The notes under the pieces: generated by a model | The model's input: the letters and a program-made list of their open reading frames with translations, nothing else | Database searches by the model: none | What the model was told of the DNA's origin: nothing | Made by a program: the position numbers and the translations under genes | Part shown: positions 29,956 through 45,737 of the stretch, in pieces | How the letters are laid out: every line of letters begins with the position of its first letter | How positions within the stretch are numbered: position 1 is the stretch's first letter | Assembly (NCBI GenBank): GCA_023150095.1 | Contig: JAKLLO010000004.1 | Span: 18,907-82,906, forward strand | Source: Zoogloea sp. | Lineage (GTDB): Bacteria > Pseudomonadota > Gammaproteobacteria > Burkholderiales > Rhodocyclaceae | Length of the DNA: 64,000 nucleotides | Reading direction: 5' to 3'

Positions 29956-30537
29956 ATGTACCTCTCGCCCAGCGACATCCAGCACACCCGCATCCACACC
30001 ATCGACAACCTGCACGCCGCCTCCCGCGCCTGGGTCGAGGCCACCGAGCGGCTGTCCGAGCTCGCCCTGCGCGCCGGCCGTCTGGCCCTGGACGAAGGCC
30101 GCGACCAACTCGAAGAGCTCGCCGAAACCCGCAATTTCAGCTTCGACACCCTGCCCCTCGAACGCTTCGCCGAATGGCGCAGCGAATCCGCCGGGCTGGT
30201 GAGCGAATGCTTCGAGATCATCGGCGACGCCCACCAGGCCATGCTGCAGATGGCCAAGGATCAGGTCGCCGTGTTCGACACCGTGCTGCAACGTCAGATG
30301 GACCGCGCCGCCCTCTCCGCCGACGCCACCGGCGAAGCCCTGATCGACCACGCCCGCGAAGCCCTGCGTCAGGCCGAAACCGGCTTCAACGGCTTTGCCG
30401 ATGCCGCCGCCCAGGGCGCCGATCTGGTCGAGGAGCAGGTGCGTCAGGTGTCCGAAGCCCTCGCCGGCGACGCCGACCCGGCCGAGAAGACCGAGGTGGC
30501 GCCCCCCGCCCGCAGCCGCCGCACCCGCGCGGGCTGA
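29956..30537 (+). CDS. Phasin family protein
   Basis: DNLHAASRAWVEATERLSELALRAGRLALDEGRDQLEEL...; amphipathic helical, DQVAVFDTVLQRQM. Confidence 0.7.
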   Translation: MYLSPSDIQHTRIHTIDNLHAASRAWVEATERLSELALRAGRLALDEGRDQLEELAETRNFSFDTLPLERFAEWRSESAGLVSECFEIIGDAHQAMLQMAKDQVAVFDTVLQRQMDRAALSADATGEALIDHAREALRQAETGFNGFADAAAQGADLVEEQVRQVSEALAGDADPAEKTEVAPPARSRRTRAG

Positions 30538-30619
30538 TCCCCACGGCGTTCCTGGCGCTAAAATCACAGCCTTTGGCAGGCGGCGCCCCGCCCCTGCCGG
30601 GTCACTCGCCAGGAACGCC

Positions 30620-31453
30620 ATGAACGCCCCCACCCCCACCCAACAGGCCCTCTACCAGGCCCGCTACGGCTCGCCCGAAGCGGCAGTGCCCGCCGCCGGC
30701 TCGCCGATCATCGACCACCTGCTGGCCCACCGCTCGGTGCGCGCCTACCTGCCCGATCCGGTCTCGGATGACCAGCTGGCCGCCATCGTGGCCGCCGCGC
30801 AGTCGGCCGCCAGCTCCTCCAACCTGCACGCCTGGAGCGTCGTCGCGGTGCGCGACCCGGAGCGCAAGGCGCGCCTCTCCATCATGGCCGGCGACCAGCC
30901 CCACATCCGCCAGGCCCCGCTGTTCCTCGTCTGGCTGGCCGATCTCGCCCGCCTCGAACAGGTCGCCACCACCGCCGGCGAAGCCCACGCCGCGCTGGAT
31001 TACCTGGAGATGCTGCAAGTGGGCTTCATTGACGCCTCGCTGGCCGCCCAGAACGCCGTGACCGCCGCCGAATCCCTCGGACTTGGCACCGTCTACATCG
31101 GCGGCATCCGCAATCAGCCCGAAAACGTGGCCGCCGAGCTGCAGTTGCCGCCCCGCACCGTGGCGGTGTTCGGTCTGTGCGTCGGCACGCCCGACCCCGC
31201 CCAGCCGGCAGCCGTCAAACCGCGCCCGGCACAGTCCGTCGTGCTGCACCACGAGACCTACTCCCTCCCGGCTCAGGCCAAAGGCCTCGCCGAATACGAC
31301 GGCGCCATGACCGCCTTCTACGCCAGCCAGGGCATGAAGGTCCGCGGCACCTGGTCCAACCACTCCGCCAAGCGCATCCGCGACGCCGCCGCCCTCACCG
31401 GCCGCGACCGCCTCGTCGAAGCCCTCAAGGCCCGGGGCTTCCCGCTCAAGTAA
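30620..31453 (+). CDS. NADPH-dependent oxidoreductase, nitroreductase family (NfsA/Frp-like)
   Basis: HRSVRAYLPDPVSDDQLAAIVAAAQSAASSSNLHAWSVVAV; ESLGLGTVYIGGIRNQPENVAAEL. Confidence 0.85.
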   Translation: MNAPTPTQQALYQARYGSPEAAVPAAGSPIIDHLLAHRSVRAYLPDPVSDDQLAAIVAAAQSAASSSNLHAWSVVAVRDPERKARLSIMAGDQPHIRQAPLFLVWLADLARLEQVATTAGEAHAALDYLEMLQVGFIDASLAAQNAVTAAESLGLGTVYIGGIRNQPENVAAELQLPPRTVAVFGLCVGTPDPAQPAAVKPRPAQSVVLHHETYSLPAQAKGLAEYDGAMTAFYASQGMKVRGTWSNHSAKRIRDAAALTGRDRLVEALKARGFPLK

Positions 31454-31457
31454 GCCG

Positions 31458-31730
31458 GTGAATCCCTCACGCAAGGCTGCGAATGCTTCGCGCAGCCTTG
31501 CGAATCCTTCTCTCAGCCCTGAGATTGCTTTTCTCACCTATGAGATTGCCTCTTTCAGCCCTGAGATTGCTTCTCCCACCCCTGAGATTGCTTCTCTCAC
31601 CCCTGAGCTTGCTTCTCTCACCCCTGAGCTTGCTTCTCTCACCCCTGCGATTGCTTCACGCAGCCGTGCACATGTCTCTCGCAGGCCTGCGAATCGTTCT
31701 CGCAAGCTTGCGAATGCCATTCGCAGCCCA
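31458..31730. repeat. 13-unit, 21-bp tandem array of short palindromes
   Basis: Units start at 31458, 31479, 31500, 31521, 31542, 31563, 31584, 31605, 31626, 31647, 31668, 31689, 31710; core GAGATTGCTTCTCTCACCCCT, flanks GCGAATGCTTCGCGCAGCCTT; CGCA-N4-TGCG or CTCA-N4-TGAG across unit junctions. Confidence 0.93.
31470..31502. terminator. Strong hairpin at 5' edge of repeat array, possible terminator
   Basis: CGCAAGGCTGCG-AATGCTTCG-CGCAGCCTTGCG, perfect 12-bp stem 17 nt after the oxidoreductase stop; no clean T-tract. Confidence 0.45.
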
Positions 31731-31792
31731 CGCAAGGTCGAACCTCGGCGCCCCACGCATCCCCCCCATCCACGCACACCACCCCCACGACC

Positions 31793-32698
31793 ATGATCCA
31801 TCTCATCGCCACCGGCGGCACCATCGCCGGCGAAGCTGATCCGGAATCCGGCGGCGCCCGCTACCGGGCCGGCGTGCGCCCCGTGGGCGCCCTGCTGGCC
31901 GCCGTGCCGGGCCTCGACGCCTTCGACCTCTCCGCCGAGCAGGTGCTCGCCCTCGACAGCAAGGACATGACGCCCGACGGCTGGCTGACGATCCTCGCCG
32001 CGGTGCGCCGGGCGCTGGATGATCCGGCAACGGATGGCATGGTGATCCTCCACGGCACCGATACGCTCGAAGAAACCGCGTATTTCCTGCAGCTCACCGT
32101 GCCCGGCGGCAAGCCGGTGGTGCTCACCGGTGCCATGCGCCCGGCCGACCACCCCCAGGCCGACGGCCCGGCCAACCTGCTCGCCGCGGTGCGTCTTGCT
32201 GCCAGCCCGGAGGCCCACGGCAAGGGCGTGCTGGTGGTGATGAACGCCACCGCCCACGCCGCCCGCCATCTGGTGAAAGCCCGCACCACCGGGCTCGACG
32301 CCTTCGAATCCGCCATCGACTGGACCGATGCCCGGCCCGACGGCCGCTTTGCCGATCTCGCCGCCGATGCCCTCCCGCGGGTGGACATCCTGCCCGGCTA
32401 CGCCGGCGCGCCCGCCGGGCTGATCGACGCCTGCGTGGCCGAGGGCGCAAGGGGACTGGTGCTGGCCCTCACCGGCCACGGCAGCGTGCCGTCGGCGTGG
32501 TTGCCGGCGCTGAGCCGGGCGCGGGAGAAAGGGGTGGTGATCGTCCGGGCCAGCCGCTGCGCCGGGCCGGTGATCCGCAACGCCAACGCCGACGACGACG
32601 TCGAAGGCTGGCTCACCGCCGGCAGCCTGCCGCCACCCAAGGCCCGCATCGCGCTGATGCTGGCCCTGGCCAGCAAACGCCCCCTCGCGGCGGACTGA
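31793..32698 (+). CDS. Asparaginase
   Basis: LIATGGTIAGEA; VILHGTDTLEETAYFL; VVLTGAMRPA. Confidence 0.92.
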   Translation: MIHLIATGGTIAGEADPESGGARYRAGVRPVGALLAAVPGLDAFDLSAEQVLALDSKDMTPDGWLTILAAVRRALDDPATDGMVILHGTDTLEETAYFLQLTVPGGKPVVLTGAMRPADHPQADGPANLLAAVRLAASPEAHGKGVLVVMNATAHAARHLVKARTTGLDAFESAIDWTDARPDGRFADLAADALPRVDILPGYAGAPAGLIDACVAEGARGLVLALTGHGSVPSAWLPALSRAREKGVVIVRASRCAGPVIRNANADDDVEGWLTAGSLPPPKARIALMLALASKRPLAAD

Positions 32699-32703
32699 CG
32701 CCC

Positions 32704-34497
32704 TCAGGCGCCGGCCACCTTGGCCGGACGCGCCTTCTTCGCAAAGGCCTCGCGGGCTTCCTCGAGGATCTGCACGAGCTCGTCGCGGGCTTCCTTGGAC
32801 GACTGGATGAGCTTGCCCTCGTCGTGGTCGATGGCCTGCTGACGGGCCAGCACCTCGGCGTCATGGCGGGCAAAGCGGGTCACCATCTGATCCACCAGCG
32901 CCGGCGGCTCGTGGAGGAGCTCCAGCGTCCACCGGGCCATCTCGAGGCTCGACGGCAGGGCCTCGCGGATCTGCCGCTCGATGCCCATGTCCATCAGCCG
33001 GCTGGCGTGGAAGCGGTTGCGGGCCCGGGCCACGATCTGCACATCGGGAAAATGCTTCTTCACCAGCTCGGCGGTGCGCAGCGACGCCTCCACGTCGTCG
33101 ATGGCCAGCACGAAGACCTTGGCCTCGCCCACCTGGGCAGCGTGGAGCAGATCGAGGTGGGCCGCGTCGCCGTAGAACACCTTGAAGCCGAACTTGCGCA
33201 CGGTTTCCACCTGCCCGGCGTCGGCGTCCAGCGCGGTGAAGCGGATGCCCCGCGCCAGCAGCAGCCGGCCCACCACCTGCCCGACCCGGCCGAAACCGGC
33301 GATCACCACGTCGCTCGCCTCGGAGGGCATCTGGTCGTAAGCCTTGGGCGGCCGCCGGCCCGCCTCGCGCCGGGCCAGCCAGTCACCAAACATCAGCAGG
33401 AGCGGCGACACCGCCATCGACAGGGCCACCACCAGGGTCAGCTTGTCGGCCTGCACCTCGCCCAGCACCTTGAACGACTGAGCCGCGTCGAACAGCACGA
33501 AGGCAAACTCGCCGCCCTGGGCCAGCGCCAGGGCCAGCATCCGCGAACCCAGCTTGGGCCCACCCACCAGCCGGCGCAGGCCGTACAGCACCACGACCTT
33601 GATCATCACCAGCCCGGCGGTGAGGCCGAGGATCTGCCACGGAAATTTAACTAGCAGGGTGAGGTTGGTGGACATCCCCACCGCCATGAAGAACAGCCCC
33701 AGCAGCAAGCCCTGGAAGGGCGCGATGGACGCCTCCAGCTCGTGACGGAACTCCGAATCGGCCAGCAGCACGCCGGCGATGAACGCACCCAGCGACATGG
33801 ACAGCCCGCCCGCCTGCATCAGCAGCGCCAGCCCCAGCACCGTCACCAGCGCCGCGGCGGTGAACATCTCCCGGCTATTGACCCGCGCCACGTGGCGGAA
33901 CAGCAGATCGAGGAGCGGCCGCCCCACCACCACCACCGCCACCAGCAGCCCCAGGCCCACCGCCGGATGGGTGAGCGCGGTGGGCTTGCCGGTGCCGAAG
34001 AGGGGAATCAGCGCCAGCAGCGGAATCACCGACAGATCCTGGAACAGCAGGATCGCGAAGGCCTCGCGCCCGTAACGGGTGGATAGCTCGCGCCGCTCGG
34101 CGAGGGTGGGCAGCACGAAGGCCGTGGACGACAGGGCCAGGATGATCCCCACCAGCGCCGCCGCCGACAGCGACAGGCCCGTGTACAAGCCCGCCGCCGC
34201 CAGCGCCGCCGCCACCCCGAAGAGCTGCATCGCCCCCAGCCCGAACACCGACTTGCGCAGCGCCCACAGGCGCGACGGCTTGAGCTCCAGCCCGATCACG
34301 AAGAGCAGCAGCACCACGCCCAGCTCGGCGGTATGGAGCAGGTTGTCCGGATCGCGCACGAGCTTCACACCGTAGGGGCCGATGAGCATGCCCACCGCCA
34401 GATAGCCGAGCACCGTGCCCAGCCCGGCGCGCTTGAAAAGCGGCACGAAAAGCACGGAAGCCAGCAGCAGGGCGGCGAATGTCGTCAGGGATTGCAT
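32704..34497 (-). CDS. Monovalent cation:proton antiporter-2 (KefB/KefC/YbaL-like) with TrkA-N domain
   Basis: GYLAVGMLIGPYGVKLVRDPDNLLHTAELGVVLLLFVIGLEL; DVVIAGFGRVGQVVGRLL. Confidence 0.92.
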   Translation of the reverse strand: MQSLTTFAALLLASVLFVPLFKRAGLGTVLGYLAVGMLIGPYGVKLVRDPDNLLHTAELGVVLLLFVIGLELKPSRLWALRKSVFGLGAMQLFGVAAALAAAGLYTGLSLSAAALVGIILALSSTAFVLPTLAERRELSTRYGREAFAILLFQDLSVIPLLALIPLFGTGKPTALTHPAVGLGLLVAVVVVGRPLLDLLFRHVARVNSREMFTAAALVTVLGLALLMQAGGLSMSLGAFIAGVLLADSEFRHELEASIAPFQGLLLGLFFMAVGMSTNLTLLVKFPWQILGLTAGLVMIKVVVLYGLRRLVGGPKLGSRMLALALAQGGEFAFVLFDAAQSFKVLGEVQADKLTLVVALSMAVSPLLLMFGDWLARREAGRRPPKAYDQMPSEASDVVIAGFGRVGQVVGRLLLARGIRFTALDADAGQVETVRKFGFKVFYGDAAHLDLLHAAQVGEAKVFVLAIDDVEASLRTAELVKKHFPDVQIVARARNRFHASRLMDMGIERQIREALPSSLEMARWTLELLHEPPALVDQMVTRFARHDAEVLARQQAIDHDEGKLIQSSKEARDELVQILEEAREAFAKKARPAKVAGA

Positions 34498-42914: not shown

Positions 42915-43238
42915 ATGACCAAATCGAACAAGTTTTCCCCTGAGGTGCGCGAGCGTGCGGTGCGCATGGTGCAGGAGCACCGGGGCGAGTCCCCCTCACA
43001 GTGGGCGGCCATCGAGTCGATCGCCCCCAAGATCGGCAGCGTGCCGCAGACGCTGCATGAGTGGGTCAAGCGCCACGAGATCGATTCGGGGACACCGGAC
43101 GGCATCACCACGTCCGAGTTGCAGCGCCTGAAGGAGCTCGAACGCGAGAACAAGGAGCTGCGCAAGGCCAACGAGATTCTCAAGCTGGCCAGTGCGTTTT
43201 TCGCCCAGGCGGAGCTCGACCGCCGCTTGAAGTCCTGA
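42915..43238 (+). CDS. IS3 family transposase OrfA
   Basis: [41 protein letters not shown]...[33 protein letters not shown]. Confidence 0.92.
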
Positions 43239-43246
43239 GGGGTTTT

Positions 43247-44143
43247 GTGGACCGGCATCGACAGGCCTACGGGGTCGAGTCGATCTGCAAGGCGTTGCAG
43301 ATTGCTCCGTCGGGCTACTGGCGCCATGCGGCACTCACGCGCGAGCCCCACAGACGCTGCGCCCGCGCCCAGCGCGACGAGGCCCTGATCCCGCACATCC
43401 AGCGGGTGTGGCACGCCAACCTGCAAGTCTATGGCGCGGACAAGGTCTGGAAACAGATGAACCGGGAGGGTTTGCCAGTGGCGCGTTGCACGGTCGAGCG
43501 GCTCATGCGCCGCCTGGGCCTGCGCGGGGTAAGGCGTGGCAAGGTCGTGCGCACGACGGTCGGTGACAGCAAGGCAACCTGCCCGCTCGATCGGGTCAAT
43601 CGGCGGTTCAGTGCCGAGCGCCCGAACCAGCTATGGGTCAGCGATTTCACCTACGTCTCGACCTGGCAGGGCTGGCTGTACGTGGCCTTCGTGATCGACG
43701 TTTTTGCCCGGCGCATCGTGGGCTGGCGGGTCAGCAGCACCATGCGCACAGACTTCGTGCTCGATGCCCTGGAGCAGGCCTTGTACGCCCGGCAGCCCGA
43801 GCGGGACGGCCCCCTCGTCTGCCACTCGGATCGCGGGTCGCAATACGTCAGCATCCGCTACACCGAGCGGCTGGCCGAGGCGGGCATCGAACCCTCGGTC
43901 GGCAGCAAGGGCGACCGCTACGACAATGCACTGGCCGAGACGATCAACGGGCTGTACAAGGCCGAGCTGATCCACCGGCGTGCGCCCTGGAAAACCCGGG
44001 AATCCCTGGAACTGGCAACCCTGGAATGGGTGTTCTGGTTCAACCACCACAGGCTGCTCGCGCCCATTGGGTACATTCCCCCGGCCGAAGCTGAGGCAAA
44101 CTACTACCGGCAACTTGCCAGTCAGGCCGTAACGCCCGCCTGA
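43247..44143 (+). CDS. IS3 family transposase OrfB (DDE integrase core); likely made as OrfAB by -1 frameshift
   Basis: VDRHRQAYGVESICKALQIAPSGYW...NQLWVSDFTYV...CHSDRGSQYVS...NALAETINGLYKAELI (D-D-E); open upstream in -1 frame to 43061. Confidence 0.92.
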   Translation: MDRHRQAYGVESICKALQIAPSGYWRHAALTREPHRRCARAQRDEALIPHIQRVWHANLQVYGADKVWKQMNREGLPVARCTVERLMRRLGLRGVRRGKVVRTTVGDSKATCPLDRVNRRFSAERPNQLWVSDFTYVSTWQGWLYVAFVIDVFARRIVGWRVSSTMRTDFVLDALEQALYARQPERDGPLVCHSDRGSQYVSIRYTERLAEAGIEPSVGSKGDRYDNALAETINGLYKAELIHRRAPWKTRESLELATLEWVFWFNHHRLLAPIGYIPPAEAEANYYRQLASQAVTPA

Positions 44144-45241: not shown

Positions 45242-45737
45242 CCGAGCCACTCGCGCAGCCAGGCACCACAGGCTGCGGCCGAGGACGCGGGCCACTCGAC
45301 CGTGACCACTGCAGCACCTTTGCGCAGTTCCAGCCGGATGGGGGGATCAACGTGGGGGGAAAGCTGCACCGGGACAAAGCCGCCCATCGGCTCGGAGGCC
45401 GCCACACGTAAGGGCAGGCAAGACAACGCCGGCGGCTCGATTTGCGCAGTTCCAGCCGGATGGGGGGATCAACGTGGGGGGAAAGCTGCACCGGGACAAA
45501 GCCGCCCATCGGCTCGGAGGCCGCCACACGTAAGGGCAGGCAAGACAACGCCGGCGGCTCGATGCCCCGTTCGCGCATCCAGCGCCGCAGCTGGTTGGCA
45601 TTGATCCCGTTCACCAGGGCCACCCCGGCGACCGACGCGCCGGGCTCCCCGCAGGCTTCGATCAGGGACTGTTTGAATGCCTCGGAGTGGGTGCGACGGG
45701 TACGGCGGGGCTTCGTGACGTTCATGAAAGTGTCCAC
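45238..45737 (-). pseudogene. IS66 TnpA, frameshifted by 122-bp internal duplication
   Basis: N-terminus RRTRRTHSEAFKQSLIEACGEPGASVAGVALVNGINANQLRRWMRERG; C-terminus found in a different frame after the duplicated segment. Confidence 0.82.
45319..45562. repeat. Perfect 122-bp tandem duplication (45319-45440 and 45441-45562)
   Basis: TTTGCGCAGTTCCAGCCGGATGGGGGGATC...GACAACGCCGGCGGCTCGA occurs twice head-to-tail. Confidence 0.95.

Follow-up and report, generated by a model that had tools for sequence, protein, structure and literature searches.

Bacteria of the genus Zoogloea inhabit wastewater flocs. We analyzed a stretch of 64,000 nucleotides (referred to below as the window) from a Zoogloea genome of 5.04 Mb that is 88.8% complete and assembled in 317 contigs. 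A tandem array of short units lies between a nitroreductase-family gene and an asparaginase gene, and this region contains the following features, given in window coordinates.

30623..31453, plus strand: nitroreductase-family gene, with its stop codon 4 bases 5' of the array
31458..31730, plus strand: tandem array of 13 units of 21 bp, of the type TGMGAWTSCTTCNCKCA plus 4 variable bases, with TGCG/CGCA at the edges and TGAG/CTCA in the core
31458..31657, plus strand: left 9-10 units, homologous (86% identity by blastn, window positions 30001-33500) to the array behind the orthologous nitroreductase gene of Zoogloea sp. 1C4 (G004:C64)
31658..31730, plus strand: right-hand units, not covered by the best colinear match to G004:C64, with a TGCACATG unit variant that also occurs at G004:C75
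31731..31765, no strand assigned: short stretch with GCAAGGTCGAACCTC, which in a by-eye comparison resembles the units of an unrelated GGACCTCAGACCTGCA-type 21-bp array preceding the asparaginase gene of Zoogloea sp. 1C4
31793..32698, plus strand: asparaginase gene, with its start 62 bases 3' of the array

An earlier reading of the sequence alone (the sequence-only reading) had described thirteen abutting 21-bp units, and this description holds for the 273-bp array: its identity at a lag of 21 is 0.76, whereas 2000 shuffles averaged 0.27 and never exceeded 0.38, and Tandem Repeats Finder reports it at period 21 with a score of 225. In register, the unit consists of TGxG, 9 bases, CxCA, and 4 variable bases, and the units fall into subfamilies with TGCG/CGCA, TGAG-ATTGCTTCT-CTCA, and TGTG/CACA arms. 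The junction motifs listed in that reading were recovered as CGCA-N4-TGCG at junctions 1, 2, 11, and 12 and CTCA-N4-TGAG at junctions 3, 4, 7, and 8, together with the perfect 12-bp palindrome CGCAAGCTTGCG at junction 12; a second perfect 12-bp palindrome, CGCAGGCCTGCG at junction 11, had been overlooked. The additional stem proposed inside the units is present, but it is not independent evidence, because with a tandem period of 21 a dyad axis at position c is always accompanied by one at c+10.5. The stem at the junction, with a loop of 4 bases, and the stem inside the unit, with a loop of 9 bases, share their arms and represent a single symmetry.

The family unit can be written as TGCGAATSCTTCNCGCA plus 4 variable bases, and arrays of it occur at three places in the window's genome, the two further ones being located on contigs C189 and C191. 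Among 24 genomes of the genus, that of the window included, BLAST and the pattern search each identified 7; G006 was matched only by BLAST and G016 only by the pattern, the two sets being otherwise identical. Arrays of the window's unit are thereby present in 6-7 of the 23 other Zoogloea genomes. The named records with matches belong to Zoogloea dura, Zoogloea sp. 1C4, and metagenome-assembled genomes of Zoogloea or Zoogloeaceae. No match was obtained in 241 sampled genomes from other genera of the family, in 397 other sampled genomes of the order, in the plasmid records searched, or with a reversed-pattern control. The lone pattern match outside Zoogloea, in Streptomyces, was a single one and was taken as chance. 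The window array is genuine and belongs to a repeat family that is specific to Zoogloea and present in only some genomes of the genus. A literature search of open-licence papers returned no description of such arrays.

The genome-wide search for units and their flanking genes that the sequence-only reading had suggested revealed more arrays, mostly behind stop codons. The nearest gene boundary is a stop codon at 13 of 15 scorable 21-bp loci (P 0.004 versus even chance), as scored by hand with ORF-based gene calls rather than annotation. Most of the loci lie from a few to about 100 bases 3' of the stop codon, and four are in convergent gaps. This does not hold for a locus found upstream of a small gene in G008, G013, and G001, which in G008 and G013 sits in a divergent gap, nor for the gap between gltL and the asparaginase gene, where the arrays are closer to the start than to the stop. 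The 3'-end bias could instead reflect promoter avoidance. We also considered the small gene (MTTGA/MTSTA) found 3' of some arrays as a partner, and rejected it since it has no Pfam family and is not near most arrays.

Comparison with known systems agrees with the earlier statement that this dyad-containing array fits no common REP, CRISPR, or iteron type. Like REP/BIME elements, the arrays are dispersed palindrome-containing repeats, mostly outside genes, often behind stop codons and in mosaic clusters, and their dispersed intergenic copies are biased to gene 3' ends (the above 13 of 15 loci, by ORF-based gene calls). In contrast to these elements, the array has no GTAG on either strand, is built of head-to-tail 21-bp units instead of alternating hairpins, and belongs to a family with few loci per genome. 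Bacterial minisatellites (VNTRs) share with it the head-to-tail units, variable copy number, and unit subfamilies, but dyads in the units and the recurrence of the 21-bp period in unrelated arrays of the genus set it apart. Plasmid iterons are likewise direct repeats of about two helical turns; however, the array is flanked by the nitroreductase and asparaginase genes with no replication gene, occurs at several intergenic chromosomal loci, and has no plasmid match. PARCELs (palindromic amphipathic repeat coding elements) have palindromic tandem units readable as amphipathic repeats, but their units are 75 nt long and coding (PMC2996958), while the array units are 21 bp long and non-coding, with no conserved open frame under purifying selection. 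CRISPR arrays also have partly palindromic repeats in a row, whereas the units here abut without spacers.

Two repeats of other types were also noted. Beside the C191 array, an IS200-like (RAYT-like) transposase gene (L105:1880-2536) lies near a GTAGGTCGGGTTAGCG-type REP repeat (L105, about 235-280) that differs in sequence from the 21-bp units. With regard to mobilisation by a RAYT transposase, a feature of REP/BIME elements, this Y1_Tnp gene is 1.7 kb from the array but would more probably act on the GTAG-bearing repeat next to it. A CRISPR-like repeat, GGGCTCCCCCGCACCCGCGGGGATAGACC, is located near a contig start in the window's genome (L226:104-199, G000:C236).

Unit content and copy number vary in the manner of minisatellites. 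The arrays contain about 4 to 14 units depending on the locus, a two-unit periodicity (period 42) is common among them, and the orthologous arrays of the window's genome and Zoogloea sp. 1C4 differ in unit content. Arrays located at two unrelated loci begin with the same unit, GGTGAATCC, and the window array and G004:C75 likewise have the odd TGCACATG unit in common. Edge units are sometimes inverted (C191, C64), and 20-bp units are present in G009.

The gene order around the window array differs from that in related genomes. In Zoogloea sp. 1C4, the orthologous array behind the same nitroreductase gene leads to a small gene; the window's genome has the counterpart of this small gene on contig C191, which starts inside an array. 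The other Zoogloea genomes examined have no array behind this nitroreductase gene. The asparaginase gene follows gltL (a glutamate-type ABC transporter ATPase), not the nitroreductase gene, in Zoogloea sp. 1C4 and several other Zoogloea checked, and gltL was not found in the 88.8% complete genome of the window. Since only the left units match the Zoogloea sp. 1C4 array, and the window array is followed by a remnant of that genome's asparaginase-side repeat, the window's gene order reflects either array-mediated exchange or an assembly chimera. We consider it about equally likely that two arrays were joined by misassembly and that a real exchange took place. The chimera is favored by the different continuation behind the nitroreductase gene in Zoogloea sp. 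1C4 and the start of contig C191 inside an array, by the position of the asparaginase gene behind gltL in that strain and the failure to find gltL in the window's genome, and by the unmatched right-hand units, whereas the contig is continuous, and the asparaginase-side remnants are what a real exchange would also leave. In either case, the array in the window's genome is a rearrangement or assembly breakpoint, and such arrays mark places where Zoogloea assemblies or chromosomes break and rejoin. This alternative concerns only the gene order in the window and is compatible with the explanation of the array preferred below.

The sequence-only reading had taken the paired arm changes as a sign of selection on hairpins or on a dyad binding site. 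We compared arm complementarity with within-array shuffles for 14 arrays from 7 genomes. The complementarity exceeds that in the shuffles both within the unit (p about 0.001) and across the junction (p about 0.005), and is not above them for more distant arms. However, the third base of the 5' half-site is less strongly associated with its partner (z 4.4 inside the unit and 2.4 across the junction) than with the unpaired positions 6 (z 8.8) and 8 (z 6.8). Among the main arm combinations, 20 changes are two-sided (13 TGAG/CTCA and 7 TGTG/CACA), compared with 25 one-sided changes (8 TGTG/CGCA, 6 TGCG/CTCA, 6 TGCG/CACA, and 5 TGAG/CGCA), so that pairing is broken at least as often as it is kept, which was the outcome named beforehand as speaking against conserved structure. 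Because the variable arm base is tied more to unpaired positions, and one-sided changes outnumber two-sided ones, linked unit subfamilies suffice to explain the covarying stems, and selection on pairing is not needed. Hairpin selection is thus not demonstrated, and a weak effect of pairing is compatible with the data. The consensus dyad symmetry is marginal in a column-shuffle test (p 0.05 for the window array, 0.04-0.3 for most sister arrays). This case shows that tandem-repeat subfamilies can mimic covarying hairpins and that shuffle tests need a control based on unpaired positions.

We somewhat favor the explanation that the array is one copy of a dispersed, REP/BIME-like 3'-end minisatellite of the Zoogloea lineage, with quasi-palindromic 21-bp units, spread by slippage and recombination. 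The arrays would grow and shrink by unit duplication, as suggested indirectly by the copy-number differences and two-unit periodicity, and the shared edge and odd units point to movement of units between loci via recombination or conversion. Where transcribed, the array is predicted to fold into a cluster of small hairpins, in keeping with the folding scores given below; any effect of this cluster on 3'-end termination or RNA stability would probably be mild at most. The matched stem changes would stem from arms that belong to linked unit subfamilies, perhaps aided by hairpin-templated correction. The array is best read as tolerated at gene 3' ends, with hairpin potential.

An alternative that we consider rather unlikely is a selectively maintained functional RNA, whose hairpin cluster would act as a transcription terminator or shield the 3' end of the mRNA of the preceding gene. 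The arrays are located from a few to about 80 bases behind stop codons, including the four loci in convergent gaps, and the RNA fold of the window array is more stable than that of dinucleotide shuffles (z -5.2 for the plus strand and -3.9 for the minus strand). Terminator activity has been reported for clustered hairpins that lie no more than 80 bases from a stop codon (PMC8355165), and by this analogy a 3'-end role of the array is plausible. On the other hand, the same nitroreductase gene lacks an array in other Zoogloea genomes examined, and pairing is conserved no more than subfamily linkage accounts for. Promoter and terminator scans at the array gave nothing, including no terminator-like site, and the Rfam search of the window assigned no family to it.

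The fetched Zoogloea DNA was scanned for tandem periods of 10-60, which revealed more arrays of period 21 or 42 with unrelated units, such as GGACCTCAGACCTGCA (G004:C57), GCTCCCGGTTCGGAGC (G004:C75), GTGTAGATCGAATACAC (G000:C13), and GTGCACGCGTG (G016:C9). The following loci have such arrays with unrelated units, most of them dyad-symmetric.

L163:5608-5857 (G004:C57)
L263:246-486
L216:8157-8384
L118:4478-4741
L239:2933-3104
L243:2731-2919
L233:19148-19472
L235:10520-10769

Another array, with 21-bp dyad units of the form TGGAC...GTCCA, is placed in frame within the linker region of a serine/threonine kinase gene (L180:18303-18613, G001:C12), and an array similar to it lies between genes at L235. 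In 1.97 Mb of Zoogloea stretches that were not picked for known arrays, though some are on array-bearing contigs, 13 arrays lack a clear coding signature, and 7 of these have a period of 21 or 42; the seven include the array in the kinase linker and one or two more that may be coding. Period 21 is the commonest among such arrays in this sample of about 2 Mb, and several arrays in it have dyad symmetry at p 0.02 or better. No 21-bp array was found in 500 kb of Rhizobium and Burkholderia replicons, where about 2-3 are expected at the Zoogloea rate, too little to decide.

This recurrence of the period in the absence of a common sequence is the only finding that we cannot explain well, and it counts against plain slippage, which does not predict a constant 21-bp period in several unrelated repeats. 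Zoogloea might carry an intergenic array class defined by architecture rather than sequence, with 21-bp dyads whose axes are one helical turn apart; a DNA-binding protein phased with the helix, or an enzyme directed by hairpins, could be the shared mechanism that created or maintains the class, although we regard this as distinctly improbable. If the 21-bp period common to unrelated arrays holds up, it would point to an undescribed length-setting mechanism for bacterial minisatellites. We assign a still smaller chance to a protein lattice, in which the dyads (every 21 bp, with axes every 10.5 bp on one helix face) bind a dimeric, perhaps filament-forming protein. The occurrence in Zoogloea of several 21-bp arrays with unrelated units, most of which have significant dyad symmetry, is consistent with it; however, no single sequence-specific protein fits, since unit sequences differ between arrays, and the 20-bp units in G009, the marginal dyad test of the window array, and the failure to find a linked regulator gene also argue against it.

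The least credible alternative, a coding heptad in which minus-strand units read (L-R-E-A/G-F/I-A-G)n in a coiled-coil pattern, accords with 21 bp being seven codons and with comparatively few stops in that frame (11 of 847 codons), but is largely refuted by a synonymous fraction of 0.275, below that of two other frames (0.31 and 0.35), by stops that break several arrays including that of the window, by frame-shifting 20-bp units, and by ORFs that extend into the antisense of real genes. No frame of the arrays has a convincing synonymous excess or codon-level selection, and a Pfam search with two long antisense ORFs found nothing.

Several other repeats and motifs were observed. Repeats of 7/14 bp, of GGGAAAT or GGGAAGT type, occur in non-coding DNA of two Zoogloea genomes (L155:29-84 and L188:10324-10430). 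Within the window, a 122-bp sequence occurs in two identical tandem copies at positions 45319-45563, which may reflect a recent duplication or be an artefact of the assembly. The only Rfam match in the window is an ALIL pseudoknot (RF01497, 106.6 bits), a frameshift signal of insertion sequences, at positions 43193-43309.
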